From: Natrinema ejinorense
Lineage (GTDB): Archaea; Halobacteriota; Halobacteria; Halobacteriales; Natrialbaceae
Reading direction: 5' to 3'
Assembly: GCF_002494345.1 (NCBI RefSeq)
Contig: NZ_NXNI01000001.1
Span: 1,364,001-1,428,000 of the forward strand
Length of the DNA stretch: 64,000 bases
Numbering within the stretch: position 1 is the first letter of the stretch; every line of letters starts with the position of its first letter. The notes under the pieces were generated by a model. That model ran no database searches, was not told the origin of the DNA, and saw nothing but the letters and a program-made list of their open reading frames with translations. Both the position numbers and the translations under genes were made by a program. Positions 37,580 through 55,371 of this stretch are shown piece by piece.

Positions 37580-38510
37580 TACACGCTGCTATGGACCTAC
37601 GAGATATAAAACGGACGTAAGTTATTATGTTAATTTTAGCACCGATATTTAACCGAATAACTACACGAGAAACTCGAACAGCGACGCGACCCACTCGAAC
37701 GGGTTACTGCCGCCCATGCCGCGAGGGATACCTCACGATCAGCGAAGTTAGACCAACTCCCTGTGCAAGATTCGCATCTGTACTTATCGCTTAGGATTAT
37801 CTCAATCTCTCCCTCCGAAGCGGATTCAACAAGGTGGGTTATCGAGGTCTCGCCCCGTCCTACTAGTGGGGAAGGGGCGCTCTACCGTCTCTAATCGGCC
37901 AACCCGTCTTTGCGCTAGCGCGGCACGCGCTCTGCGCGCCGCGCAATTGCCCTACCCCCTTAGGGGCATGGTCTAAGTCAAATCGAAACGACCCGCAAGC
38001 ATCGCGGTGGGATCACGGTGCCAAGCCCACCTCGAGCCACTGGCTACAACCAGCATCGCCTCAGCAGCGATGGTATTCGACCGAGCGTGTAGCACACGGC
38101 GAAAACGAGAGTGGTGCCACCACGTGGGGCCGGTTCCACGAGCTGCGACTGCGCCGACGAATCCGATTTCAGTCCCGCCACCGAGAGCCACGTCCGCTCG
38201 AGGCCACGGCGTTCGGTCGAATCGCTCCCCGACTTCGCCTACTTCTCGAGGCCTCACTCGCGATCATCCCGACGTTCTCGAAGCTATCCGCGTTCGGTCG
38301 ACAGCAAATCCGATCCTCGTTCCTCGAGACTCGCTGTCGCCGTCGAGCGTCGCAACAACGCCGAATCGTCTCCGGCGACGCAGCGGGCGACCGTCACGTA
38401 ACTCAGTCCCTGGTTCAGTTGCCACGTGATCGACTCGAGCGCGGTGCCGTCGCCCCTCGCGGTCGAGTGCTGCCAGAGAGCTATTTTATAGTTCCCTCGA
38501 ATGGACCGGT
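37580..38510. other. 930-base stretch without convincing gene
   Basis: Just upstream of the lipoprotein gene, 37,620-37,665 is AT-rich and probably holds its promoter. GC-rich short inverted repeats occur at about 37,910-37,945 (GCGCTAGCGC, GCGCGCCGCGC). Open frames between 37,973 and 38,429 are arginine-rich on one strand and irregular on the other; none looks like a real protein. Confidence 0.4.
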
Positions 38511-38909
38511 ATGCATCGCCGTGGCTTCATTTCGGCCACAGCCGCCGGCCTGGTGTCCAGTGCGGGCTGCGTCAGTTCCGACGAGCAGTCGGCGAGGCTG
38601 GCGTGGATCACCCTCCGAAACCACCGGGACGAGGAGTACGACGTCACGGTCGCCGTCGAAGACGATGGTGACACGGTTTTCTCCCGGACGTTTTATCTCG
38701 GCACCACCGCCGAAACGGCGACCGTCCTCGAAGAAACCCCCGTCGAGGGCGAGGGGGAATACGTCGTTCACGCCACGATGGACGGCGAAAACCGCGCAGT
38801 CGATACGACGGACTTCATCGAGGAGGACGAGCGGTGTCTCGGCGTCCGTTTCGAACTGCTGAATAACGGCAGCGTCGACTATCGGACGAAATCCATGCAG
38901 CAGTGTTGA
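38511..38909 (+). CDS. small Tat lipoprotein
   Basis: The 132-residue protein begins MHRRGFISATAAGLVSSAGC; the RR pair and lipobox SAGC (cysteine at residue 20) mark Tat export with lipid attachment. The mature part (ARLAWITLRNHRDEEYDVTV, then EGEGEYVVHATMDGENRAVD) resembles short haloarchaeal beta-sandwich lipoproteins. No function is known. Confidence 0.7.
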   Translation: MHRRGFISATAAGLVSSAGCVSSDEQSARLAWITLRNHRDEEYDVTVAVEDDGDTVFSRTFYLGTTAETATVLEETPVEGEGEYVVHATMDGENRAVDTTDFIEEDERCLGVRFELLNNGSVDYRTKSMQQC

Positions 38910-38940
38910 CCGCTCGGTATCGCTCGGTGGCCCGCGCTCG

Positions 38941-39103
38941 TCAGTCCTCGACTTCAATCGCGGCTGGCTCCCACGCTGCCGTCACGGGGCACTCCTCGAA
39001 AGCAGGCTGAAACCGAGTCGGCTCCTCGAGAGGCGCCTGTGTCCCAAGTGAAATAGCGGTAGTTGCTCGTCTGAAACTGCCGGTCGGCCTCTGTCTCAGT
39101 CAT
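38941..39103 (-). pseudogene. frameshifted 53-residue protein gene
   Basis: From the ATG at 39103 the frame reads MTETEADRQFQTSNYRYFTW. After one extra base in the CCC run at 39044-39046 the next frame continues TQAPLEEPTRFQPAFEECPV and stops at 38941. The length is 163 bases, one more than a whole number of codons, so a single-base insertion explains it. The protein family is unknown to me but both halves have good composition. Confidence 0.5.
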
Positions 39104-39323
39104 ACCCAGTTCACCGTTCCACGGTCTCGCTGCTGAGCTTCCGGGCTGAACGTTCCTCGATAGTGCTCGAGGAACTAATCGACCTCGGTCCGACTGAACC
39201 AGGCCAGCATATCGTCTCGCTTCTCGTGTTGTAGATTCATGTTCGGGGTGCGCGCTAACCGGCTAGGTTCGAGGGCGATGGTCGTTGTTTCGGTGGTTCA
39301 AAAGGGAGAGCGACGTCGATTTC

Positions 39324-39371
39324 GTCCGACTTTGTGGAGTTTCTCGGACACGATCCAAGCGATAAGTACAG
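39324..39371 (+). repeat. cassette-site repeat A
   Basis: Core 39324-39351: left arm GTCCGACTTTG, six variable bases, right arm TTCTCGGACAC. The outer right box AGCGATAAGTACAG follows, ending at 39371. It is the exact complement of the outer left box CTGTACTTATCGCT in copy I. No left outer box is visible. First copy of the array. Confidence 0.8.
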
Positions 39372-39425
39372 ACGCGAGTGTATCGGAGAACAAAGACTTA
39401 TCTCCGAGACGCCTGCAGTGACGGT

Positions 39426-39626
39426 ATGTCGGGAACGCTTACAGCCCTCTACCAGCGCAACGAAGTGTTCTGGATGGGACTGACCGCAGTCGTTCTTGGG
39501 GTATTGATTCCCGGTACCCTCGCATTCGGGGGACTCAACCTCTCACGCCTGTTTGGCGTTACTGGAGGGGGCCTCCTGATTACGAGCGTTTTCGTCGGCA
39601 TCTACAGATTCTTCACTCCGACGTAA
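39426..39626 (+). CDS. small two-helix membrane protein (cassette gene)
   Basis: The 66-residue protein MSGTLTALYQRNEVFWMGLT has two hydrophobic segments (FWMGLTAVVLGVLIPGTLAF and VTGGGLLITSVFVGIYRFF). It lies between repeat copies A and B, 63 bases ahead of B, the usual position of a cassette gene. Function unknown. Confidence 0.6.
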   Translation: MSGTLTALYQRNEVFWMGLTAVVLGVLIPGTLAFGGLNLSRLFGVTGGGLLITSVFVGIYRFFTPT

Positions 39627-39688
39627 CTGCCGGAGCAGTCGGCAACAGTGAAGGCGATACATAGATACGTCGTCTTGAATGAAGCGCC

Positions 39689-39738
39689 GTCCGATTTGTG
39701 GAGGAGATTTCGGACACGACCCACGCGCCAAGTACACA
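39689..39738 (+). repeat. cassette-site repeat B
   Basis: Core 39689-39717: GTCCGATTTGT, then a slightly longer centre, then TTTCGGACAC. It is one base longer than the others and the most diverged. The outer right box GCGCCAAGTACACACG follows. Confidence 0.65.
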
Positions 39739-39873
39739 CGCGAATCTAACGCTGGCACTTCTCTCAGCTATCGGCGATGGTGGCAGAGCCGTGCTGAATG
39801 TAGAACGCGTATCAGTCACAGGACTCCCTCAATGTCGCGTCGGAGAGAAAGCGTGTCTTCACCGGGGGACGAC

Positions 39874-40707
39874 TTACGTCGTCGGTAACGCCTCCGGGTC
39901 GAGCAATTCAGCCTCGTCTCGATAGTCTTCGTACAGCTCCTCGGCCCACGACATAATGGCAGGTGTCTCAGCGACTAACAATCCCCGAACGACGCGTTCT
40001 TCGTCTCGTTGTTCACCCAACCAAATCGTCACGGACTCATCAAAGATATGCATGTTAAGTGGGATCTCCCCATCGTAGGTCCAAATGCTCTCCCGCTCCG
40101 CTCGAAACCGCAGTAGCGGCAACTGCTCTGACTCCGCAGGGAGGGTCGCGATCCAGTCCGATTCGATTACGAGTTCGGCAGTCAACTGTCGCTCGTTGAC
40201 CTGTTCGTGAATGAGCGTCACGTATCGAGGCAGCGTAACCTCGACAAGTGAGCGGACCTCGTCCGTAGTGCGAATCTTCTCCGCCACGTGATCGTATGGC
40301 CTGGATGGTGCCGGCGTCTTCGGCGTTATGATCTCGACGGTGCGGAAGTGGCGGAAATCGAGCGATCGAACGGGTGACGGGAGCCACTCGATAGCGTTAC
40401 CGAGATGCTGGATTCCCTCGACAGTCTGCAGATAGGCGCGGAACTCGGCGATCATAATCCCGCCTTCCTCCGTTAGCTCGTACTGACTCCCCTCGGAGGA
40501 GATCCACCCGCGTGATTCGCCGGTATCGAGGATCCGTGCGACGGTAGACCGTGATGCGCCGGTTTGTTCTGCGAGTTCGCGGCTTGTCGTCGGCCCGGCG
40601 GTGAGTGCCTCGAACACGCGCACGCTGTTCGCTGAATCTGCGAAGAACTGGATCGTGTCCAGTGCCGAGTCCATGTTTGTTGGGGGCGCGTGACGATGAT
40701 TGGCCAT
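39874..40707 (-). CDS. winged-helix regulator, FilR1/HVO_A0261-like
   Basis: Starting at MANHRHAPPTNMDSALDTIQ (an inner start MDSALD at 40674 is also possible) the protein has about 277 residues. The N-terminal winged helix is clear: VRVFEALTAGPTTSRELAEQ, TGASRSTVARILDTGESRGW and YELTEEGGIM. The C-terminal 180 residues resemble the ligand-binding region of haloarchaeal FilR1-type regulators. It is divergent from the DUF1330 gene at 40996 and probably controls it; both share one cassette unit between sites B and C. Confidence 0.75.
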   Translation of the reverse strand: MANHRHAPPTNMDSALDTIQFFADSANSVRVFEALTAGPTTSRELAEQTGASRSTVARILDTGESRGWISSEGSQYELTEEGGIMIAEFRAYLQTVEGIQHLGNAIEWLPSPVRSLDFRHFRTVEIITPKTPAPSRPYDHVAEKIRTTDEVRSLVEVTLPRYVTLIHEQVNERQLTAELVIESDWIATLPAESEQLPLLRFRAERESIWTYDGEIPLNMHIFDESVTIWLGEQRDEERVVRGLLVAETPAIMSWAEELYEDYRDEAELLDPEALPTT

Positions 40708-40995
40708 GTCGTACGCTACGTCCGAGTAGTCGCAAATACCTTTGCGGGGGGTGGGAAGATTGGCAGGGTCTCGGAAACTTCCCATCGAGTAGGGCTATGA
40801 CTCACGCACTGGTATGTGTCATCAAGACACAGGAGGTGAGAACGAAGTCGAAGAGGGGAATACCGAACCGGCGGACGGTTGAGGGACAATCAACCGGGAA
40901 TACGCCACCGAAATCAGTGGATCGGTTGGAAGAATGAATCACATGAACCGACGGACGGTGTTAAGAAATATCGACGCGCGTGTGAACACGTGACA

Positions 40996-41469
40996 ATGGT
41001 CAACGAACCCAATTCAGACGGCGTCTTCCGACGAACGCTGTTGAAAGCGGGAGCGGTCATAGCGGGTGCACTCGGGATGCTCCCGTCTGCAACAGCTAGT
41101 GGTCGTGAGAGCGAGACGCAGACTGCCGAATCGACTCAAAGCGAACCTACCCAATCCCAGAACGGATACGTGATTGCTGTCGATGGGATAACCGACAGGG
41201 ACCGGTATATGAACGAATACTTCTCTGTCGCTGCAGAGACAACTGCCGCGCATGACGGAGAGGCGCTCGTTATCTCGTTCGATCCAACCGTGCTGGACGG
41301 CGAATGGGATCATGAACTGACGATCGTCCTGGAATTCCCATCCGTTCAAGCAGCGAGGGAGTGGTATGCTGATGACGCCTTGCAAAACGTCCGGCAGATT
41401 CGCCACGAGACCACCGCCTACTCCAATAAGATCGTCACCTCTCAATACTCTCCTGAAGGTCGGGCGTAA
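40996..41469 (+). CDS. Tat-exported DUF1330 protein (cassette gene)
   Basis: The 157-residue protein has a Tat signal (RRTLLKAGAVIAGALGMLPS, residues 12-31) and a Ser/Thr/Glu-rich linker. The DUF1330 domain follows from about residue 55: NGYVIAVDGITDRDRYMNEY, then VLEFPSVQAAREWYADDALQ. DUF1330 is a ferredoxin-like antibiotic-monooxygenase-type fold; cytoplasmic forms are usual, so export is notable. It is divergent from a regulator gene. Confidence 0.75.
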   Translation: MVNEPNSDGVFRRTLLKAGAVIAGALGMLPSATASGRESETQTAESTQSEPTQSQNGYVIAVDGITDRDRYMNEYFSVAAETTAAHDGEALVISFDPTVLDGEWDHELTIVLEFPSVQAAREWYADDALQNVRQIRHETTAYSNKIVTSQYSPEGRA

Positions 41470-41575
41470 GGAATGCCATCATCTTCTTTCTTCCCGGCAA
41501 ATTGGAAGTATCCTCTCGACTCGAAGCGGTAGATACATTCCCGGAGGGGCGTGAAAGTCCATCCGATACTTTCAT
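41442..41575 (-). pseudogene. frameshifted 44-residue protein gene
   Basis: An ATG at 41575 is preceded by a strong ribosome site (GGAGGAG). After MKVSD the reading must lose step by one base, then continues WTFTPLRECIYRFESRGYFQ and FAGKKEDDGIPYARPSGEY to a stop at 41442. The 134-base length is one short of whole codons. The 3' end overlaps the convergent DUF1330 gene by 28 bases. Confidence 0.4.
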
Positions 41576-41600
41576 CTCTCCTCCGGGATACCGATCTTCC

Positions 41601-41653
41601 ATCCGACTCTGGAGAGATTCTCGGACACAATACTTCTGGTAGCTACGTCTGCA
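41601..41653 (+). repeat. cassette-site repeat C
   Basis: Core 41601-41628: ATCCGACTCTG, six variable bases, TTCTCGGACAC. The outer right part (GGTAGCTACGTCTGCAC) is a weak match to AGCGATAAGTACAG. No left box is visible. Confidence 0.7.
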
Positions 41654-41726
41654 CATCAAGCAGATCGGCTCCTATGTCATGTCTAATGAATAGCATTACG
41701 TGTCTGGGTTTTGAGATTCGTGTTGC

Positions 41727-41999
41727 ATGCCCTCTAAAAAGACAGTTGGCGCTGCGCCATTGATCACGGGAATTTTGCTCGCATTCCAATCAGCCGGCAC
41801 GATAGTTCAAAGCGGACTTTCGCCGTGGTCGGTCCCCGGTCTCATTGGCGGTTGTGCTGCCATCGTTATCGGTCTCGGAATTCTGCTTGAAGGGGACACG
41901 TTCAAACGGGACGCAGTGGAGAGCAACCGGCCTTCTGTGGCTGTTCTCGGATTCGCTGCCGCCGCATTTTTGGCCGGCGCAGCAATCGCCATCGCATAG
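41727..41999 (+). CDS. small membrane protein (cassette gene)
   Basis: The 90-residue protein MPSKKTVGAAPLITGILLAF has three hydrophobic segments and a short charged loop (EGDTFKRDAVESNRPS). It lies between sites C and D, 96 bases before D. No family is recognised. Confidence 0.6.
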   Translation: MPSKKTVGAAPLITGILLAFQSAGTIVQSGLSPWSVPGLIGGCAAIVIGLGILLEGDTFKRDAVESNRPSVAVLGFAAAAFLAGAAIAIA

Positions 42000-42094
42000 A
42001 ACGACCGAGACCAACATTCGTTCCCATATTTTCGGCCCCAATGCCATGTCTCGTAGAAATCCGCGCTAAGTAGTGCAGAGAGTTACAGCGATCC

Positions 42095-42171
42095 GCTGTG
42101 CTTACCGCTGGTTCACGACCTCCTGTCCGACTCTGTGGGAGTTCTCGGACACAGTACCCACAGTAAGTACA
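42095..42171 (+). repeat. cassette-site repeat D
   Basis: Full copy. Outer left box CTGTGCTTACCGCTGG at 42095, core 42124-42151 (GTCCGACTCTG, six bases, TTCTCGGACAC), outer right box CAGTAAGTACAG ending at 42171. The outer boxes are inverted repeats of each other with a few mismatches. Confidence 0.85.
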
Positions 42172-42250
42172 GTCTGCATATTCAGTCGATAACGTGTCAA
42201 AGGTTGTGTTCTCGAACAAGACTATTTATTCGTCAGACGAACCGTGAAGT

Positions 42251-42694
42251 ATGGTCGGCGGTATAATTGAGCAATGCGAAGAACGGTTCTGGAGGCGTCA
42301 CTCGAATCCAAAGAGCGGTTGGACGCGCGTCCCGTTGGGTGCTGTCATCGTCTACGCTATCTATCGGCGCAACTGGCGGATGGTCGGTGCCGCGCTCGCG
42401 TGGACCGCGATCAATCCGTTCCTGTTCTCGCCACCCGATACCGAGGACGCGTGGATGACTCGCGCCGTGCTTGCCGAGCGGTGGTGGATCAGGGAGGAGT
42501 CAAACCGGACGGTCGGGCTCGACTACCCGAACGTCTGTAACACCGTCGGTGCGCTCGGATTCGTCTACGCGCTGTACGCCGCGTGGCGACGGTCGCCGAC
42601 GGGAGTAACGCTCGGTGTCGTGGCCAGCGTCGGTCTGAAACTTTGGTGGCTTCGGGTGTTGGTCAAACACTATGACGAACGACCGGACCGATAG
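42251..42694 (+). CDS. DUF6653 protein (cassette gene)
   Basis: The 147-residue protein has ERFWRRHSNPKSGWTRVPLG, NPFLFSPPDTEDAWMTRAVL, AERWWIREES and LDYPNVCNTVGALGFVYALY. These are the marks of the haloarchaeal DUF6653 family, small proteins with three or four membrane segments. Function unknown. It stands between sites D and E, 53 bases before E. Confidence 0.75.
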   Translation: MVGGIIEQCEERFWRRHSNPKSGWTRVPLGAVIVYAIYRRNWRMVGAALAWTAINPFLFSPPDTEDAWMTRAVLAERWWIREESNRTVGLDYPNVCNTVGALGFVYALYAAWRRSPTGVTLGVVASVGLKLWWLRVLVKHYDERPDR

Positions 42695-42746
42695 GACTCT
42701 CGTCGATTCGATGGTGAATCCACCGACTCGACGACTCACTACGCAT

Positions 42747-42822
42747 CTGTACTTACTGCTACTCGAGTTCGTCCGTCCGACTCTGGGACAATTCTCGGGC
42801 ACAGCGCTCGCCATAACTACAG
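42747..42822 (+). repeat. cassette-site repeat E
   Basis: Full copy. Outer left CTGTACTTACTGCT from 42747, core 42775-42802 (GTCCGACTCTG, six bases, TTCTCGGGCAC), outer right CATAACTACAG to 42822. The palindrome extends outward by GCAT/ATGC. Confidence 0.85.
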
Positions 42823-42826
42823 ATGC

Positions 42827-42976
42827 TTACCGAACAAACAGTCCAATAATAGTGATTGCCCCTCCCAGAACGATTATTAGGCCATCCCGGAAAATGTATC
42901 GACCAAAAATAGCTATCTGGATGCCTAATGCCATTATTTTCAGACCAGTAATCGATTTCTGAGTGGGTTTAGACAT
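42827..42976 (-). CDS. 49-residue membrane micro-protein (cassette gene)
   Basis: The minus-strand frame from ATG 42976 encodes MSKPTQKSITGLKIMALGIQ followed by IAIFGRYIFRDG and LIIVLGGAITIIGLFVR. It has two hydrophobic segments split by a charged turn. It is AT-richer than neighbours. It is the only gene between sites E and F and runs against the array direction. Confidence 0.5.
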   Translation of the reverse strand: MSKPTQKSITGLKIMALGIQIAIFGRYIFRDGLIIVLGGAITIIGLFVR

Positions 42977-43036
42977 ATACCATCCTCCTTATTGATCAGC
43001 TTAAAATAGTTCTGAATTGATCGATAGACTGCTCGT

Positions 43037-43120
43037 CTGTACTTCCGGTTGACTTGGGATCGTTTCCGACTCTACTGTAGTTCTCGGATGACGATTTCAC
43101 CAAGCCTGGTTTCGAAAGTG
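43037..43120 (+). repeat. cassette-site repeat F (variant right end)
   Basis: Outer left CTGTACTTCCGGTT at 43037, core 43064-43091 (TTCCGACTCTA, six bases, TTCTCGGATGA). The right flank is not the usual box but TTTCACCAAGCCTGGTTTCG, which is shared with copy G. Confidence 0.75.
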
Positions 43121-43196
43121 GCGTTACGTGTGCGAACTGAACGATACGAGATGTCATCGGAAACACCTATTTGGATGGAGATACCCGGTGGCAGCC

Positions 43197-43760
43197 ATGA
43201 GCGAGGAAAAAGAAAAGATGCTGAACGGGGAACTGTACGACCCGACCGACCCCGAGCTTGTGGCCGACCGGAACCGTGTGAGCGAACTGACAAGTAAATA
43301 CAATAACACTGCACCTGACGACCAGACCGAACGGCGAGACCTGATAGAAGACCTCTTTGGGTCGGTGGGCGAGGAATGTCAGATTGAGCCTCCATTTCGC
43401 TGTGACTACGGATACAATATCCACGTCGGGGAGAACTTCTACGCGAACTTCGACTGCGTCATTTTGGACGCGGGCCGAGTAGAGATCGGTCGGAATTGCA
43501 TGATCGCACCTGGCGTCCATATTTATACGGCGACCCATCCGCTCGACGCCACCGAGCGAATCAAAGGACCAGAGTACGCTGAACCGGTTACAATCGGCGA
43601 CAACGTCTGGATCGGTGGGCAAGCCGTTATCAATCCAGGTGTGACTATCGGAGACGACAGCGTCATCGCCTCCGGAGCAGTCGTGACCGAAGATGTTTCT
43701 GACGAGGTCGTCGTACAAGGAAATCCCGCGACCGTAGTAAAAGATCTGAGCAATAATTGA
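43197..43760 (+). CDS. sugar O-acetyltransferase, LacA/Maa type (cassette gene)
   Basis: The 187-residue protein starts at [20 protein letters not shown]. An N-terminal Mac-type helix region is followed by a left-handed beta helix of hexapeptide repeats: [51 protein letters not shown]. The catalytic histidine is in YTATHPLD. It would acetylate a sugar with acetyl-CoA. It lies between sites F and G, 38 bases before G, and both flanking sites share the same unusual right end. Confidence 0.9.
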
Positions 43761-43797
43761 CGCTACGAAACTTCGAACTCGGTAATAGATCTACGTT

Positions 43798-43880
43798 CTG
43801 TATTGAACGAAGTTACTGTCCGACTTTGGACGAATTCTCGGACGATGATTTCACCAAGTCTGGTTTCGAAAGTCCCGTTG
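43798..43880 (+). repeat. cassette-site repeat G (variant right end)
   Basis: Outer left CTGTATTGAACG at 43798, shortened spacer, core 43818-43845 (GTCCGACTTTG, six bases, TTCTCGGACGA). The right flank TTTCACCAAGTCTGGTTTCG matches copy F with one change. Confidence 0.8.
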
Positions 43881-44079
43881 AGTATGTATGCGTACTGAAC
43901 AGCCAATTTACTCTACGACGAGGCGAAAACATCCGCATGCCGATCAGCCTCAGCAGAGGCACTATTTCTCCATAGAAGCTATCAGGAACCTCAGACGATC
44001 TCGTTACCTCCGATGGCTTCCCTTTGATTAGGCAACTACGGAAGCCAGCCGTAGGAGTAACAGCTGACCTTCCACCTGG

Positions 44080-44190
44080 TCACCTGTCTGATCGCCATTC
44101 GGTCCCTATCATCCAGATTACGCCGACTAGTGCTATAGCGTTCAGCCCCAAGATGATCACCGCGATGATGCCTCCTGTGCTCATGGTCAT
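44080..44190 (-). CDS. 36-residue membrane micro-protein (cassette gene)
   Basis: From ATG 44190 (or the next ATG at 44184) the frame reads MTMSTGGIIAVIILGLNAIA and LVGVIWMIGTEWRSDR. One membrane helix has a charged C-terminal tail. A purine-rich ribosome site (GAAGGAAC) precedes it. It lies between sites G and H in reverse orientation, the only candidate gene there. Confidence 0.45.
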   Translation of the reverse strand: MTMSTGGIIAVIILGLNAIALVGVIWMIGTEWRSDR

Positions 44191-44316
44191 GGTTCTGTTC
44201 CTTCTGCAACTGGATAAAACGACTACTCGCTCATGCACGCCCACTACCCGTACGAAACATGGAATTCCGTCGAGTCTGAGGCGAATGAAAGGTATCCGTC
44301 ACGATACTGCCAACAC

Positions 44317-44390
44317 CTGTATCGAACGCTACTCACGATCGCCTGTCCGACTCTGGGGCAATTCTCAGACACAACACTCGCGAGAAGTGC
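44317..44390 (+). repeat. cassette-site repeat H
   Basis: Outer left CTGTATCGAACGCT at 44317, core 44345-44372 (GTCCGACTCTG, six bases, TTCTCAGACAC), outer right CGCGAGAAGTGCATG. The left box resembles those of G and J. Confidence 0.8.
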
Positions 44391-44569
44391 ATGAAAACTG
44401 CCCGCTGAGATTTCTACCCGTTTCAGATAATGTCCTACGAGTCGTGCTGGATACAGGACGCGTCTCGGTCAGCGTCATCAGCACCGTTTCACGATCAAAC
44501 CATACTCGTCTCAGCGGCGGGGACGTGAACCCCCGCAACATTTGAACGTCGCGGGAGACGACACGCTCG

Positions 44570-44866
44570 ATGCCCTCCATCATCGATAAAACCGTGTTCG
44601 GCGAACCCTCCAGAGGTCTTGCACTGGTCTACCTCTGTGGCGCACTTCTGCTGGCCGGGCAGCAAGGGTACTACGTCATTGTAGAAGGGGCGACACCGTT
44701 CTATGCTGGACTGTTTCTGATCGCCGGGATGGCCCTCTCCGGCATTGCCGAGTCCCTGCCGAAACCTCGACGACGGGCAGCCGGCGTCTTGCGACTCACG
44801 GCACTCGTCGTGCTGGTGAGCATGTTCGTAATTATGATCGTCACACCCGAACTCCTCACCAACTGA
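44570..44866 (+). CDS. small membrane protein (cassette gene)
   Basis: The 98-residue protein MPSIIDKTVFGEPSRGLALV has three hydrophobic segments and a conserved-looking central part (LFLIAGMALSGIAESLPKPR). A broken relative lies at 52625-52880, which shows that the family is spread in this genome. It follows site H. Confidence 0.6.
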   Translation: MPSIIDKTVFGEPSRGLALVYLCGALLLAGQQGYYVIVEGATPFYAGLFLIAGMALSGIAESLPKPRRRAAGVLRLTALVVLVSMFVIMIVTPELLTN

Positions 44867-45173
44867 GCGCGGTGATCGATTCGAACTCACTGCTGCCAAC
44901 CGAATGTGTTCTTGAGGAGGATCCGCTACGACTGCTGACGATTCACGGGGTGAATCTGCCGTATCAGCCACACGGTTTCTGACAGAGTTCGGCCAGTCTG
45001 TAAGCACACCGCTGCACGTACAGCGCTTATTTAGAAATTTGAGGGGGACTACATCTAACCTTTTCAGCGAACAGCCGCTTCAGTCGTACCCTGGCGAATA
45101 GAACGCGCTCGCCATGCTGCATCCATGCTCTCTATGCAGCAACGGGCAATCTGCCAGAAGGGTGGTTGGTCGG
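44867..45173. other. stretch between cassette gene and integrase
   Basis: No gene is visible. A 12-base sequence CTCTATGCAGCA at 45130-45141 is repeated inverted at 45942-45953, so the two copies bracket the integrase. A short hairpin GCTGCAT ... ATGCAGC overlaps the left copy. Near 44,983 a faint resemblance to the array core (GAGTTCGGCCAGTCTGTAAG) may be a dead copy. Confidence 0.4.
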
Positions 45174-45953
45174 TTATTTGTGGTGGACTCGACGGAGTGC
45201 GTCGGCGGTCGCGGTTCCGGAGATCCGGATGTACTTCTGGGCAGTCGCAAGGTCACTCCATCCCATCAGTGCTTGTAGCGGTACCGGAGCTACTCCCTTG
45301 TACGCATGATGGCTGGCTGCGGTTGCTCGCAGACAGTGTGGATAAGTTCGTCCAGTGAGATTCGCTTGGTTCGCGGCTTCTTCGACCCGTCGGTTGACCG
45401 TTGACCGCGACCGTGGGAAGCCACTGTAGCGGTTTGCGAATCGCTCGATACAGAGTTCGATTCGTAGTGAGAGATCGAAGGGGATTGACCGAGCTGACGC
45501 GACGGTCTTTGGGTGCCAGCGTGAAGCGATAGCGTCGGCTTTAGTCAGTTGGTCATTGTGGGCGACTTCCTGACGGGCCTGTCGCCGGCAGTAGCCACAG
45601 TCACACGGCTCGTGCTGTGGGATGCGGATGAGTTTGCGGTTCCAGTCCAGCCAGGACGTATGGAAATGGGCTATCTCCCCAGCGCGGAGCCCAAGCCGAC
45701 CGCCGAGCAGACAAATGAACCGCGCCTCGAAGCCACGTGGTGCTGGCAGATCCCTACTGCCTCTAACAGCAGTTCGAACTCTCTGTCGTTGAGTACATCT
45801 TCATGGGAATGGCGGGTGGTCAGTGCCTGTCGGTGTCGGTCGGCCCATTCGTTCTTCGACGTTCCTTGGTGAACCACCTTTGCAGGAGTGTGGTGACCGG
45901 GAATGAGTATTCCCCAGATCAACGACAACCAACAGCCTCTCTGCTGCATAGAG
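45130..45953. repeat. 12-base inverted repeats flanking the integrase
   Basis: CTCTATGCAGCA at 45130-45141 and its exact complement TGCTGCATAGAG at 45942-45953 enclose the tyrosine recombinase. The right copy overlaps the start codon. They could be ends of a small mobile unit or recombinase binding sites. Confidence 0.5.
45174..45949 (-). pseudogene. tyrosine recombinase with single frameshift
   Basis: From ATG 45949 the frame reads through VVHQGTSKNEWADRHRQALT to DREFELLLEAVG. One base is missing in the CCC run near 45,750; the next frame then continues DLPAPRGFEARFICLLGGRL to the stop at 45174. With the frame restored the protein has about 258 residues and the full catalytic set: Arg in LGLRAGEIAHF, Lys in RWHPKTVASA, HxxR in YPHCLRATAASHHA, the H/W position in LMGWSD, and the Tyr nucleophile in AQKYIRIS. 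It has no visible N-terminal SAM-like domain. It lies inside the cassette array and is the natural candidate for its recombinase. The frameshift may be a real inactivation or a sequencing error. Confidence 0.8.
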
Positions 45954-46029
45954 GGCGCGTATCGCTCACTATACGCGCTTGTTATACCTTATTCGGAGGG
46001 CCATCAGAACTAGCCACCGACGTAGGGGG

Positions 46030-46701
46030 TCAACGGGGCCGTCCGTTTCCGATAAATTGTCTGACAAGCCGTGCTTCTGCCTTCTGTAGATGGTTCGAGG
46101 CAGTGCTCGTTGCACAGTCGAGAATCTCGGCTACGTCTGCGACACTCCCGATCCGGGGATACTCATAGAACCCGACCTCAACCGCCGCTCGAAGCGCCTC
46201 ACGCTGCCGGGCCGTGAGATTGACGGCAGGGACGCCTGGGCGAGCATCGTACTCGCCGACCTCAGACACCGCTGCAGCGATTTCGTCAGGCAACCTGTCA
46301 AGAATCCCTGCTAGATCGTCAGGCTCGCCGACGACATCGAAATCTACCCTCCCGTTGGGCCGATAGGCGAGTGGTGGCACAACAACCACCGACGGTTGTT
46401 GGAATGCTGTCCGAAAGCGCTTGAAGATCTCCTGCTCACGCTCCTGAACGTATGCGTAGAAAGAGCTGTCGTCAACGGGCGTAATATTGTAGTCGACCGT
46501 CCTCTCGGCACCAGCAATATGTCGTTTGTATCGCTCCCGGTCGCCGATAAGGTAAAATAACGTATAGACGATGTCACCCTCTCCCAGCAAGTTCCACGTG
46601 ATGAGCCAACTGCGCTCGAGAGACTCAGAATCGGTCAGGAGCCGCTGCATCGGATGCTGGACTGCCCGCTCATACTGCAGCGACAGATGAAGGTATTTCA
46701 T
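46030..46701 (-). CDS. HTH_10 (Bat-type) transcription regulator
   Basis: The 223-residue protein starts at MKYLHLSLQYERAVQHPMQR. A Bat-associated N-terminal half is followed by a C-terminal HTH_10: NLTARQREALRAAVEVGFYE, then VADVAEILDCATSTASNHLQ and KAEARLVRQF. It is divergent from a hydrolase gene, with 85 bases between starts and one shared AT-rich promoter, so it probably controls that gene. Confidence 0.85.
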   Translation of the reverse strand: MKYLHLSLQYERAVQHPMQRLLTDSESLERSWLITWNLLGEGDIVYTLFYLIGDRERYKRHIAGAERTVDYNITPVDDSSFYAYVQEREQEIFKRFRTAFQQPSVVVVPPLAYRPNGRVDFDVVGEPDDLAGILDRLPDEIAAAVSEVGEYDARPGVPAVNLTARQREALRAAVEVGFYEYPRIGSVADVAEILDCATSTASNHLQKAEARLVRQFIGNGRPR

Positions 46702-46724
46702 GGTTAGTGCAGCGGCCGCCTCAC

Positions 46725-46734
46725 TTTTAAATAC
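46725..46734. promoter_or_regulatory. shared promoter region of regulator and hydrolase
   Basis: TTTTAAATAC lies midway between the two divergent starts and can serve as TATA box in either direction, about 24 bases from 46701 and about 53 from 46787. Confidence 0.5.
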
Positions 46735-46786
46735 ACTAGGACATCCGACAACGATTGAATACGATTTGAGCCCCAAACCGCTACTG

Positions 46787-47692
46787 ATGGCAGGCGCAGA
46801 AACGCTCACGGACACAGATGCATCGTTACTTGATGCGCACGGGCTCGAATCCACCTACCGCGAAATTAACGACTTGCAGTTACACGTCGTGGCCGCGGGC
46901 GATCCCGACGAACCACTGGTCGTCCTTCTGCACGGCCATCCCGATTTCTGGTACGGCTGGCGCGACCAGATCGGTCCGCTCGTTGACGCCGGCTTCCGTG
47001 TGGTCGTTCCGGATCAGCGGGGCTGTAATCTGAGCGACGCTCCTGACGGTATCGATGCCTATCGGCTCTCGACTCTCGCAGCTGACATCTGCGAGCTGAT
47101 CCATGGCGAGGGGCAAGAGTCGGCCCACGTCGTTGGGCACGACTTTGGTGGTTTTGTCGCTTGGCACCTCGCTCTCCAGCACCCATCCAGAGTCGATCGC
47201 CTCGGGATCTTGAACGTCCCTCATCCAACGGTCTATAGAAAGACCCTCCGTTCAAGTCCCCAGCAGATCATCCGGAGCTGGTACGTGTGGTTCTATCAGA
47301 TTCCGACGCTCCCCGAATGGCTTTTGCGTCGGAACGACATGGACAACATGGTCGATTCCCTCGAAATCACGTCAAATGAGGGTACGTTCGACGACGAAAC
47401 GATCAAGCGCTACAAGACGGCCTGGCAATACACCGGCATCGAACCACGGATCAACTGGTACCGTGGGTTCCGTCGGTCAGACAGCCCTCCGCGGGACACT
47501 GTCACCCAGCCGACGCTGATTTGCTGGGGCGAAGATGACATCGCTCTCCGCCCCTCGATGGCCGAAGAGAGCGCCGATTACTGCGACGACGGGCAACTCC
47601 GGATGTTCCCCGATACGTCACACTGGGTCCATCACGAGCGTGAAGAAGTGACTGAAGAACTGATCCGGCATCTCGCGCAGAACTCGCTATAG
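46787..47692 (+). CDS. alpha/beta hydrolase, epoxide-hydrolase-like (cassette gene)
   Basis: The 301-residue protein starts at MAGAETLTDTDASLLDAHGL. The oxyanion HGHPDFWYGW, the nucleophile elbow GHDFGG (Asp nucleophile) and the late acid/His pair (WGEDDIALRP and SHWVHHE) match epoxide hydrolases and haloalkane dehalogenases. An Asp nucleophile rules out ordinary esterases. The cap region carries RSWYVWFYQIPTLPEWLLRR. It is followed at 148 bases by site I and divergent from its presumed regulator. Confidence 0.9.
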   Translation: MAGAETLTDTDASLLDAHGLESTYREINDLQLHVVAAGDPDEPLVVLLHGHPDFWYGWRDQIGPLVDAGFRVVVPDQRGCNLSDAPDGIDAYRLSTLAADICELIHGEGQESAHVVGHDFGGFVAWHLALQHPSRVDRLGILNVPHPTVYRKTLRSSPQQIIRSWYVWFYQIPTLPEWLLRRNDMDNMVDSLEITSNEGTFDDETIKRYKTAWQYTGIEPRINWYRGFRRSDSPPRDTVTQPTLICWGEDDIALRPSMAEESADYCDDGQLRMFPDTSHWVHHEREEVTEELIRHLAQNSL

Positions 47693-47757
47693 ATGTCTCC
47701 GAGATTCTCAAACCTTCGTCCGAGTGCTCGAAATAACAATTTACGATCACATCTGTC

Positions 47758-47784
47758 TGCTGAAGACATCCTCTGTATTCAGCA
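47758..47784. repeat. hairpin, part of a recurring short sequence
   Basis: TGCTGAA and TTCAGCA form perfect 7-base arms. The left arm belongs to CTGCTGAAGACATCCTCTG, which recurs at about 48,819. It lies downstream of the hydrolase gene and may terminate it. Confidence 0.45.
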
Positions 47785-47839
47785 CCCCGTTTCTGACAGC
47801 CGACAGAAAGATAGATGCCCGCTCCGATCACGTCTTGGT

Positions 47840-47914
47840 CTGTACTTATCGCTGGTTCATGACCTCCTGTCCGACTCTGTCTGAGTTCTCGGACACCTAT
47901 TCGTGGCAAGTAGG
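47840..47914 (+). repeat. cassette-site repeat I
   Basis: Full copy with the reference left box CTGTACTTATCGCT at 47840, core 47869-47896 (GTCCGACTCTG, six bases, TTCTCGGACAC), and right box GTGGCAAGTAGG. The spacer between left box and core (GGTTCATGACCTCCT) is almost the same as in D. Confidence 0.85.
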
Positions 47915-47934
47915 CTCCTAGAAACGGTAGCGGG

Positions 47935-48762
47935 TTATAGCACTCCGTCTACCGATGGCGCTCTCTGCCGTAGCCTACTCGGTTTTGCGAACGAGATAGA
48001 GGTACTGAGTGAAGTTGAAGAACGTCTCCCCATTTCCTCACACTTGTGGAGGTCATCAGCCCATGCCTGCGCCTCGTCTGGCCCGATTTTATCGTGATCT
48101 GCCGCGTATTCAGTGATGAACTGCATCAGATGATAGGCGAACGCATCCTCATCTAAATTAGTATTGAGTATGGAGTTCGGTTCGACTCGTTCGATCGTCA
48201 GTCCTGTGTTGCGGAAATACGGTTCGAGTTTCGATCCCAAACGCGGTTGTGGGCAATGATCATCGAACGCATCGAGAACGCGCTCCATTCGTTCCGGATT
48301 CGGAGACCGCCAAACGAGAGATGCAAAATCGGCGTCACAGATTACCGCGCGGCCACTCGGCCGAAGGACTCGAGAAAGTTCTGTCACTGCTGTACTGACA
48401 TCGTCGAGATACTCGTAGGCCTGTACGGCGACAACCGCATCGAATGCTCTCTCCATGACCGGTAGACGTGTGGCATCCGCTTGAGTAAGAGTCACCTGCG
48501 GCAGAGTCTCACATCGGCGCTTCGCAAGCGCAAGCATAGCTCTACTCTGGTCGATGCCGTGAACGTGACCAGTGTCTCCAACGGTCCGTGCGAGTTCCAG
48601 TGGCTCGAATCCAGGCCCACAGCCGATGGATAGGACCGTTTCGCCAGATTGTAGATGGAGTAGGTCCCTGACACGCTGACGACGATCAGCTGCCGCTGAA
48701 GTCTTGTAGATAGCTGCTTCCTGTCGTGCCTCTTGCTCATCGTAGTCGAGTGGATCGCCCAT
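47935..48762 (-). CDS. class I SAM methyltransferase, frameshifted C-terminus
   Basis: The 275-residue reading starts MGDPLDYDEQEARQEAAIYK. SAM-binding motif VLSIGCGPGFEPLELA, HGIDQSRAML, the DA at TQADATRLP and DAVVAVQAYEYLDD are those of UbiE-like methyltransferases. The last 30 residues look wrong. If one base is restored in the CCCC run near 48,028 the end becomes ETFFNFTQYLYLVRKTE with a stop at 47975, the usual final strand of this fold. The core should be functional either way, or the frameshift is an error. It lies between sites I and J, against the array direction. Confidence 0.8.
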   Translation of the reverse strand: MGDPLDYDEQEARQEAAIYKTSAAADRRQRVRDLLHLQSGETVLSIGCGPGFEPLELARTVGDTGHVHGIDQSRAMLALAKRRCETLPQVTLTQADATRLPVMERAFDAVVAVQAYEYLDDVSTAVTELSRVLRPSGRAVICDADFASLVWRSPNPERMERVLDAFDDHCPQPRLGSKLEPYFRNTGLTIERVEPNSILNTNLDEDAFAYHLMQFITEYAADHDKIGPDEAQAWADDLHKCEEMGRRSSTSLSTSISFAKPSRLRQRAPSVDGVL

Positions 48763-48983
48763 CGCTCTCTACGGGTATTGCACAGGCTTTACGTTAAAAC
48801 ATTTATAGTTAGTCGAACTGCTGAAGACATCCTCTGGGCCTTGTTTAGACGCAACTGAGATCGGCGCTAACGCTTCGTTCTCAAAGTATGAAACCGTACT
48901 GTGAGGTGCTTACCACCGGATTCTGTTCAGTCAAAATGACTCCTGACCTGCTCATCCGAAAGCGTCCAAACAAGACTCTTGAT

Positions 48984-49058
48984 CTGTATTGAGCGTACTC
49001 TATGATCGTTTGTCCGACTCTGGGGGACTTCTCGGACAAGACTATACAGTAAGTTTAG
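48984..49058 (+). repeat. cassette-site repeat J (last copy)
   Basis: Outer left CTGTATTGAGCG at 48984, core 49012-49039 (GTCCGACTCTG, six bases, TTCTCGGACAA), outer right CAGTAAGTTTAG to 49058. The left spacer resembles copy H. No further copy was found to the right. Confidence 0.85.
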
Positions 49059-49204
49059 ATCACCACATACCGAGCCCTTCCCGAACTCGAGATTCTAAAC
49101 GAGAAATTCGATCCTCTAAATCAGCGTTGGTATCGACATCTTTCTCTATCTTACGGAACCGAACTCCTTGAGTGGCGGCACTAACTCTTCCCGACAGTCG
49201 TCAC

Positions 49205-53093: not shown

Positions 53094-53555
53094 CTACACG
53101 GCAGCCTTTTCGCCAGCTTCGACCACGTCTTCGCCGTCAGTGTAGCGCATCGGCGGGACGACGATCCACACGTTCTCGTGCCCTGTGGCTACCGAAATAT
53201 AGTTCATACTTTTGAGCGGCTTGATGATCTCCTCGAGAACGGCACTCTTGGGCGTACTGTTGACGTAGAGCTTGTTTTTTGCCGTCTCGAGTTTTACTCG
53301 TCGCTTGATCTTATGGGGAGCAGACGCTCTCTCGTGAAGCATCCGGTACGCTTCGGCGAGCCGCTCGTCGTCGGGACGTATCGGCTGGGGTTCGTTCAGG
53401 TCGCCCTTCGCCTCGACTTCTTTCTCGACCAGCTCGCGAAGCTTCTCGCTTCGGTTCATATCCTCGCGGTCAGCGATCTCGTCGAGCGCCTCGAGCAACT
53501 CGTCGGGACAGCCAAAGGAGACGCGACTCGAGGGATCGTAATCCATCCGGGCCAT
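53094..53555 (-). CDS. ribbon-helix-helix regulator with C-terminal domain
   Basis: The 153-residue protein starts at MARMDYDPSSRVSFGCPDEL. Residues 8-50 form a ribbon-helix-helix: a strand, then LLEALDEIADREDMNRSEKL and RELVEKEVEA. The C-terminal part (AVLEEIIKPLKSMNYISVAT, then NVWIVVPPMRY) is unknown. A regulator at the edge of the provirus-like region. Confidence 0.65.
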   Translation of the reverse strand: MARMDYDPSSRVSFGCPDELLEALDEIADREDMNRSEKLRELVEKEVEAKGDLNEPQPIRPDDERLAEAYRMLHERASAPHKIKRRVKLETAKNKLYVNSTPKSAVLEEIIKPLKSMNYISVATGHENVWIVVPPMRYTDGEDVVEAGEKAAV

Positions 53556-53674
53556 CAGTGGCTCACCCCGATTTGCATATCCCGTGAATACGGGGACGGC
53601 GTCGGGATAGGCAGTTCGTATGCAAGGGGGGAGGGGTGTCCTACGAAGACGGCTATCGCTCGGGTGTGCGCGCG

Positions 53675-54107
53675 TCATGCGCGACCCTCCGCCTCCCGCT
53701 CATGCTGGGCTGCCTGTTCGATCGCAGTGTCGTGTGGCTCCCCGTCGTGTGTCTCGCCGGTGGCCTGATGCATCTCGTGCTCGTCGTCGGGGCTCCCGTC
53801 GGTCGCTTCGACATCGATCAGTCCGAGGAAGTCGGCCTTCCGGAGCGTACAGAGATGGGCACACGGGCCGTCGTGGTACTGCCAGCCTTTGCAGTCGCAT
53901 CGGCCGACGTTACTCCTCGTCCTCGAGGCCGAGCGCGCAGTAGTGGACGTCCTCACCGTCTCTGAGCGTGACCTTGTAGCCGAACCGTCCGAACGATTCG
54001 GTCAGTGCCTCGCGTGGGTCCGCTCGTGTCCACGACTGAGTTTCGTCGTCGCGTTCCTCGAGGAAGTCGACTGGCTCCCCGTCAGTTGGTTCTGGGAAGG
54101 CGCTCAT
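53675..54107 (-). pseudogene. SWIM zinc-finger protein split by a frameshift
   Basis: The first frame, from ATG 54107, reads MSAFPEPTDGEPVDFLEERD to HYCALGLEDEE and stops at 53910. The overlapping frame continues NVGRCDCKGWQYHDGPCAHL then CTLRKADFLG to 53675; CDC plus CxH is a SWIM zinc finger. Removing one base in CTCCTCGTCC near 53,913 joins the two into one protein of about 143 residues, the form I would expect. Two separate overlapping genes are the alternative. Confidence 0.55.
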
Positions 54108-54342
54108 GGGCCTCGAGACACCTCCGGTAGATCGTTGAGCGTCGGCTGGAACGGTGTCGGCTCCCCCACAACGCCACAGGGTTGCATCAATAACTAACAC
54201 TTATTGAAAGAAACTTCTCTAGAGGGATTTGATTGCTGTACTAATGGAATAAAATTAAGGTGGAAATGGGGTCGGAGGGCGCACCTCTCCTGAACCACGC
54301 GATCCTGACAGGGCTTTACGACGCTGATTTCGGGCGGTTGAA

Positions 54343-55371
54343 TCACTCATGGGTATCCTGAATGTCAAGTTTCAGAGTTACGTCTGCTCGCAGTTCTTCG
54401 AACTCCTCGTGAAGACCGGCTTTGTAGTAGTGCCGCCGGATCGTCTCCGGACGGGCGTTCACGCGCTTCGCGACCGTCTCGATGTCGAGACCTTGGAGCA
54501 ACTGCCAGGTGATCGAACCCGTACGAACGGCGTGAAGCGCACGACTGCTCGGGCACTTACTCGCGAAGTTCCGCCGCGTGTAGTCACACGTCTCCCGTCG
54601 CTTCGAATGCGGACAGTTCGTGATTAAACACGGCTGAGTGCCCTGATAGCTCCAAGCGCGAAATGTCGAGTTCGATGGGCGGCCCTGGCGGGCACAAAAT
54701 AACGGTTCGCGTCCGTTCTTGTCGCGTTTCTCGACGCGCTCTCTGGCAATGTACGTATCCAGCGCTTCGACCACCTGCTCGGAGATTCCGACGACGCGTT
54801 CGCCCTGCTCCTTGTTTTTGAGACCGGTAAACGGTGGTCGGTGCCGGAACTCGAGCGTCTGGTCGTCTGGGTCGTAGTCGCGGAGATCCAGCGCCCGTAG
54901 CCCGCTCATTCGACATCCTACGTGCCAAGCGACCTCGAGTACAGCGTGCTCCGGTTGACCTCGCCACTTTCTCGACGACCGGTAGAAATCAATCAACTTC
55001 TCGGCATCGTCGTGGGCGAGCTGCTGGTCGCTCGATTCTTCGGACCGTGTGACCGTCGGCACGTTCACCTTGTCGGCAAACCCATCGTCGACGATCTCGA
55101 CGGACTCGCAGTAATCGAGTAGCTGTTTCAGAGCGACCATCGATCCGCGTAAGGTCGTCGGGGCAATGTCTGCGGCTTCCCGATCAGCTCGAAACTCGTC
55201 GAGGTCCCACCCAGAGAGTTCGGACATACGGCTGATGTCCCGTTCTTCACAGAACTCGACGAACCGTGTAAGACGGTTCTCGTAGGTGCGGAGGGTTCGG
55301 TCTGTGTTTTCCGTCTTCCGTCTCGAGAGGAACCGATCTCGGGCCTCCCGCGGAGAAAGTTCTCGGCTCAC
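54343..55371 (-). CDS. tyrosine integrase, SNJ2 type
   Basis: The 342-residue protein has an N-terminal SAM-like core-binding region (TDRTLRTYENRLTRFVEFCE) and a catalytic domain with Arg in WHVGCRMSGLRALDL, HAVRTGSI and the nucleophile in ETIRRHYYKAG. Four Cys/His residues between (CLITNCPHSKRRETC) may bind zinc, as in haloviral integrases. It is the last gene of a three-gene operon with two small proteins upstream, the arrangement of the pleolipovirus SNJ2 integrase. It would integrate the provirus. Confidence 0.85.
   Translation of the reverse strand: MSRELSPREARDRFLSRRKTENTDRTLRTYENRLTRFVEFCEERDISRMSELSGWDLDEFRADREAADIAPTTLRGSMVALKQLLDYCESVEIVDDGFADKVNVPTVTRSEESSDQQLAHDDAEKLIDFYRSSRKWRGQPEHAVLEVAWHVGCRMSGLRALDLRDYDPDDQTLEFRHRPPFTGLKNKEQGERVVGISEQVVEALDTYIARERVEKRDKNGREPLFCARQGRPSNSTFRAWSYQGTQPCLITNCPHSKRRETCDYTRRNFASKCPSSRALHAVRTGSITWQLLQGLDIETVAKRVNARPETIRRHYYKAGLHEEFEELRADVTLKLDIQDTHE

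Follow-up and report, generated by a model that had tools for sequence, protein, structure and literature searches.

Here, we describe an array of gene cassettes and putative recombination sites, together with the short recombinase family that accompanies such sites, in Natrinema ejinorense GCF_002494345.1. The array lies in a window, meaning the whole 64,000-nucleotide (nt) stretch NZ_NXNI01000001.1:1,364,001-1,428,000 (forward strand, window positions counted from 1). Between 39,325 and 49,036, ten sites in one orientation share a 24-26-nt core, TCCGACTYT-N7-TTCTCGGA, in which two inverted arms flank a 6-8-nt centre. The pattern TCCGACTNTG-N6-TTCTCGGA, with up to 3 mismatches, yielded 9 matches in the window, all on the plus strand and within the array (0.32 expected in shuffled sequence, maximum 2), and the tenth copy (39,690), with a core 1 nt longer, was recovered by a looser pattern. 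A sequence-only reading of this DNA had reported ten same-orientation copies of one imperfect palindrome over 9.7 kb. The copies are real and have the core in common, but the long palindrome, CTGTACTTACCGC ... GCGGTAAGTACAG, is complete in some of them only. Of the copy starts given there, 39324, 39689 and 41601 are core starts and the other seven outer-arm starts, a mixed set, and its gene-to-site spacing of 38-148 nt is correct if measured to the outer arm. The repeats sit between genes, right behind plus-strand stop codons. The features are listed below, with the strand where one applies.

38379-49150: segment absent entire in a same-species genome, with 60 nt in its place (genome comparison)
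39100-39240, minus: recombinase relic (translation, compared with the intact gene C1:417032-417616)
39238-39265: decayed second core-like palindrome, over the recombinase start codon in relatives (compared with upstream regions of ~40 loci)
39266-39324: recombinase promoter (on minus) and attI left flank, common with the first site of the genome's second array
39325-39348, plus: attI-equivalent core, first site, 85 nt upstream of the relic's start codon (pattern search, locus comparison)
39349-39689, plus: cassette 1, membrane microprotein (homology to another genome from 39,341, within the core)
39690-39714, plus: site 2 core, one base longer (looser pattern)
39715-41601: cassette 2, FilR1-type regulator (minus) and DUF1330 protein (plus) (open reading frames (ORFs), Pfam)
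41602-41625, plus: site 3 core (pattern search)
41626-42125, plus: cassette 3, membrane microprotein (ORF)
42126-42149, plus: site 4 core, both outer arms (pattern search)
42150-42775, plus: cassette 4, DUF6653 (Pfam; 92% homologous cassette in another genome, from 42,142 within the core)
42776-42799, plus: site 5 core, both outer arms (pattern search)
43065-43088, plus: site 6 core (pattern search)
43089-43818, plus: cassette 6, Mac-type sugar acetyltransferase (Pfam)
43819-43842, plus: site 7 core (pattern search)
44346-44369, plus: site 8 core (pattern search)
44370-47869: cassette region 8, membrane microprotein (plus), HVO_0513-type regulator (minus) and alpha/beta hydrolase (plus) (ORFs, Pfam)
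47870-47893, plus: site 9 core (left half 91% identical to site 4 over 57 nt; right flank differs)
47894-49012, minus: cassette 9, SAM methyltransferase (Pfam)
49013-49036, plus: site 10 core, end of array (pattern search)

The genes between successive copies are unrelated, as first described, and Pfam confirmed the families named (DUF1330, FilR1-type and HVO_0513-type regulators, DUF6653, Mac-type acetyltransferase, alpha/beta hydrolase and methyltransferase). The tyrosine recombinase noticed inside the array is present, but it is frame-disrupted and belongs to an independent ~845-bp element with 12-bp inverted ends (45,116-45,958) that splits cassette region 8. This element occurs at unrelated places in other genomes, with intact copies on other haloarchaeal plasmids (98-68% identity), and its recombinase was rejected as the driver of the array.

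The array's own recombinase is a protein of 195 aa with a tyrosine recombinase catalytic domain as its sole domain, encoded by a divergent gene that adjoins the first site. In the window this gene is reduced to a 141-nt relic in which ~21 N-terminal codons are fused to ~24 C-terminal codons, the middle having been lost between the short repeats GTTCCTCGAG / GTTCCTGGAA; judged from its translation, the recombinase of this array is dead in cis. The same genome holds an intact gene (C1:417032-417616) next to, and divergent from, the first site of a second array, and the first sites of both arrays have a common left flank that is not found at the remaining sites. Nearest named relatives are from Natrinema, and the catalytic R-K-HxxR-W-Y residues are conserved in the family. 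Profile scores fall far below cut-off for the integron integrase (TIGR02249, 36.9 bits vs 265, with the first half only aligned) and for archaeal XerA (NF040815, 41.6 bits vs 220), and the IntI-specific inserted motif is not visible in the profile alignment, which is partial, covers the first half and is not residue by residue. The predicted structure (mean pLDDT 80, weak at the C-terminus) has a tyrosine recombinase fold. Its alignment with archaeal Xer, IntI4, XerA and the Tn1549 integrase covers their catalytic domains and begins at residue ~96 or later of those structures, so the N-terminal clamp domain is absent.

Relatives of this recombinase (E <= 1e-20) were found in 110 of 293 Halobacteriales genomes, with named carriers in Natrinema, Natrialba, Natronococcus, Salinarchaeum, Halorubrum, Haloarcula, Haloferax, Halolamina and Haloquadratum. 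Almost all of the first 40 loci inspected have a palindromic core 82-98 nt before the start codon. A search for TCCG-N14-16-CGGA at 80-128 nt upstream (typically ~88 nt) succeeded in 59 of 73 unique loci, and control windows gave a mean of 0.5 and a maximum of 2. By position and sequence, this core beside the divergent recombinase gene is the attI equivalent. The start codon itself is covered by a second core-like palindrome in about half of the loci, and in Haloferax, Halolamina and Haloquadratum the outer core bases are altered and the start-codon palindrome is altered likewise. A subfamily ~48% identical has the core GTCCTCGAAGACCGGCTTCGCGGAC and the Haloarcula enzymes the core GCACCAGAATGCCGGGTTCTCGGGC, both at the same upstream position. 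The core sequence thus varies between recombinase subfamilies and is of one kind inside each, a matching of enzyme and site that is predicted for a recombinase with its own site.

Searches with each locus's own attI arms returned 26 further sites on the array strand, 1 on the opposite strand and none on the side of the recombinase; the rate in shuffled sequence was 0.06 per 100 kb. Scanning 13 loci with a profile brought 55 matches, 21 of them the seeds, and every match had one and the same orientation with respect to the recombinase. Presence of the core tracks that of the recombinase (15/20 genomes vs 15/101, Fisher p = 2e-7), and among 2.9 million viral contigs the class-1 core occurs in one and the recombinase in one, the same contig.

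Cassette content differs between related loci. In an all-against-all comparison, homology between modules begins at the stop codon and breaks off where the attI core ends. In nine loci that have a far flank in common, 98% of the module and 94% of the flank's first 260 nt are shared, but 1.7% (median 0) of the intervening 2.8-7.3 kb. Between Natrialba asiatica and N. aegyptia, identity is 95% on one side, 90% on the other and 90% within the module, and the DNA in the middle is unrelated. Cassettes found in differing contexts have homology ending within the core in five pairs at the cassette start and in one pair at the end (the 3' junction). In the window, homology of the DUF6653 cassette begins at 42,142 in the core, where the partner genome has a class-2 left half, and homology of cassette 1 with another genome begins at 39,341, within the core. 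A Natrialba aegyptia cassette is common to a class-2 array (93% over 905 nt), and one cassette has different left halves before it, of class 1 on a Natrinema plasmid and of class 2 in this genome. The cassette start brings the right half TTCNCGGACA with it and the cassette end brings the left half, so the exchange falls in the centre. Core centres differ between partners.

The sites themselves do not look like attC. Sites that acted as folded strands in the attC manner should have paired arms, yet over 62 sites the pairing of a site's own arms was no better than that of arms exchanged among sites (p = 0.59). Outer arms are in the minority (left in 13 of the 62 related sites, right in 8), and attC-like folding was dropped as a candidate for lack of support. 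The outer arm CTGTACTTAYCGC occurs 6 times in the 4.48 Mb genome, 4 of them within its arrays. An Rfam search of two loci gave no match. Given the result on arm pairing, the sites are closer in type to compact dif-like duplex sites than to attC.

Beyond the window, the same genome carries the second array (C1:412,513-416,946) and, around 1.469 and 1.552 Mb, sites that stand alone or in pairs, as well as solitary or convergent class-1 sites outside arrays (L011:9110 and 9419; L012:7389). At C1 ~404,938-405,120 (L009:4938-5120) a relic of a class-2 attI and recombinase start is followed by a class-2 site and a cassette. The outer arm CTGTACTTACCGC is also found with other cores (e.g. GAGTTTCGCGGGAACTGCTGAATGAAGAAACCG) at L126, L127, L123, L132 and window position 37778, in some cases adjoining homologues of window cassettes; these are perhaps further core classes. 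A 66% identical recombinase, with an unrecognisable upstream site, lies on PUNK01000029.1 (L150), which is binned as a Thermoplasmata metagenome-assembled genome (MAG) and is possibly haloarchaeal contamination. In Haloquadratum walsbyi J07HQW2 (L159), the stored record is N-masked just past the attI start, leaving the array unreadable.

Many of the modules are located in simulovirus-like proviruses. Of 101 loci, 25 (21/92 unique) have simulovirus-like capsid and ATPase genes on the side of attI, and among 25 such capsid loci in 121 genomes, 18 are 5-11 kb from a recombinase of the short family. Modules are also found in other integrative elements and in arrays without virus genes: 12 loci, including the window and the second array, gave no capsid or packaging match among the families listed, and some of these are near housekeeping genes, e.g. 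EF-1A or FtsZ. In Haloarcula marina, an 18,001-bp circular plasmid (NZ_CP100406.1, L264) is a simulovirus-like genome with the short recombinase, and the chromosome (G247:C1:2843903-2879625) holds the same virus as two tandem copies, 99.9% identical. Its junction is a tRNA 3' end beside a second integrase of 342 aa, and the core of the short recombinase has not changed between the circle and the two integrated copies; the module is therefore internal cargo in that virus. In this one virus the element does not integrate at the site of the short recombinase. A tRNA directly at the recombinase 3' end was looked for in the loci and none was found. The H. marina record also has a 157-bp tandem duplication at the attachment site, maybe an assembly artefact. 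That the virus is itself a giant core-bounded cassette was rejected, with no core past the virus to +38 kb.

Relatives of the 342-aa integrase lie near 27 of 92 unique loci and at 54,355-55,359 in the window, so the array is probably next to, or within, the remains of an integrase-bearing element of this kind. A CopG-type gene, a SWIM-type region and an SNJ2-type integrase occupy window 53094-55359 in the same order as in circular simulovirus-like elements, suggesting remnants of proviruses that were adjacent or in tandem. Two identical copies of virus plus recombinase, exactly 22,283 bp apart (G117:C1 near 895,000 and 917,500), are probably another tandem provirus.

Direct comparison of these genomes documents the turnover of cassettes with junctions in the core, the module, the positions and orientation of the sites, and carriage by a circular virus-like episome. 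From this we consider it quite probable that the array belongs to a haloarchaeal cassette-capture system that works in an integron-like manner and is assembled from other parts. The integron-like reading proposed at the outset survives in its dedicated recombinase, attI equivalent, cassettes that differ between related loci and homology ends within the core; it fails as a parallel in the enzyme, which is not IntI, and in the sites, where own arms pair like swapped ones. Several observations weigh against a capture system. Some of the nine compared loci, several in number, are proviruses, whose accessory regions vary anyway; with the flank proviral in several, the nine were rejected as one chromosomal locus and are taken as related elements. 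Homology ends near cores were not significantly enriched over all loci (10 vs 6.4 expected), in a test that mixed in flank homologies, and the aligned junctions were relied on instead. Some homologues of window cassettes lie elsewhere with no recognisable core nearby, and many loci show attI alone, or attI and one more recognisable site. Gain or loss of a single cassette within a species was not seen, the sole same-species comparison showing the loss of the whole segment, and the window's own recombinase is dead.

In the most serious competitor, proviruses bearing the short recombinase use the core as their normal attachment site, and the arrays are proviruses accreted in tandem, with their trimmed remains, instead of captured cassettes. 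The company of capsid genes fits this explanation (the recombinase within 5-11 kb in 18/25 capsid loci, virus genes on the attI side in 25/101 loci), as do loci with two recombinase modules in tandem. We regard it as unlikely all the same, given that H. marina uses a tRNA and the 342-aa integrase and leaves the core unchanged, and that an integrase-att layout would put the virus genes on the other side of the core; past the virus, no further core turned up as far as +38 kb. Cassettes of 0.3-0.9 kb with one small gene are also unlike proviruses, and the 12 loci lacking capsid or packaging genes among the families listed do not fit it. Somewhat less likely still is homologous recombination in short repeats or in a viral hypervariable region, with recombinase and palindromes serving regulation or another task. 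The start-codon palindrome is operator-like and provirus accessory regions vary strongly, as this would have it, yet sharing stops within a 24-26-nt core, so short a homology being a poor substrate, and the halves are tied to a recombinase of matching specificity while the sites keep a single orientation.

Finally, the repeats might be terminators or fixed 3' signals of gene families, for which their intergenic place just past plus-strand stop codons speaks. This is very improbable in view of the fixed place upstream of the recombinase and a presence tied to it, and different genes follow the same left flank while the same gene follows different left flanks. The refuting case first envisaged, a fixed gene order with terminators, is contradicted by cassette turnover and by junctions within the core.

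In the proposed system, the short recombinase gene is transcribed away from the attI-equivalent core, and cassettes start with a right half-core and finish with a left half-core. Most likely, the enzyme would cut at the edges of the core centre, with strand exchange within the 6-8-nt centre. Recombination between two cores would excise a cassette as a circle, and circles could be inserted at attI or at other cores. Since centres differ between partners, the enzyme must tolerate heterologous centres or use another trick. Tn916-type enzymes recombine duplex sites with different centres, and by analogy tolerance as in the Tn916 family may apply here. Sitting on the start-codon palindrome, the enzyme would probably shut off its own promoter. 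The intact C1:417032 enzyme, of the same core class as the window array, could act on it in trans. We infer catalysis, circular intermediates, autoregulation and action in trans from sequence comparison.

That the system works like an integron is well supported by the comparisons above; it is not a member of the integron family, because two defining features (IntI and attC) fail. A broader proposal is that archaea evolved their own integron for capturing and shuffling gene cassettes, built from a minimal catalytic-domain recombinase with a cognate attI and short duplex sites with non-matching centres, existing in at least three core-specificity classes and carried between hosts by tailless icosahedral viruses; taken as one claim, this seems to us evenly poised between right and wrong. 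The gathering of single genes into arrays is known mainly from integrons. A separate system, in haloarchaea that can be cultured and for which standard genetic tools exist, would mean that the integron plan has more than one origin. Such a system would explain the location and movement of many small orphan haloarchaeal genes, and would offer a simple enzyme, free of an N-terminal domain, for recombination between sites with different centres. Viral carriage would give it a route for gene flow, and the need for folded single-stranded sites in cassette capture would become directly testable. In the open-access literature searched, no earlier description of an integron-like haloarchaeal system was found, and the word 'cassette' is absent from a 2021 review of archaeal tyrosine recombinases.

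Among known systems, the closest in plan are integrons, bacterial or reported in archaeal MAGs, the latter of the IntI/attC type (PMC9668308). Like these, the haloarchaeal system has a divergent tyrosine recombinase gene, an adjacent attI equivalent, same-orientation cassettes of 1-2 genes, cassette turnover with junctions at the sites, and arrays with a dead recombinase. It differs in a recombinase that is not IntI and has no N-terminal domain, in compact 24-26-nt cores without attC-like arm pairing and, from the archaeal-MAG integrons, in its host group, Halobacteria ('halobacter' is unmatched in the text of PMC9668308). Xer/dif and mobile pdif modules have a similar short bipartite site with inverted arms, a 6-8-nt centre and genes between sites, whereas here a dedicated recombinase with its own attI takes the place of the host Xer, orientation is single and centres vary. 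Integrases of the Tn916/Tn1549 type are structural neighbours of the predicted model, but the haloarchaeal system has no transposon, its cassettes lack a recombinase and N-terminal domains are missing. SNJ2-type integrases (PMC8371274) are haloarchaeal tyrosine recombinases found in the same elements, although larger (342 aa in H. marina) and integrating the element at a tRNA. Simuloviridae (SNJ1, NVIV-1, HJIV-1; PMC12642351), described as extrachromosomal episomes, have capsid and ATPase genes resembling those of the module-carrying proviruses, which differ from the described members in carrying the short recombinase.

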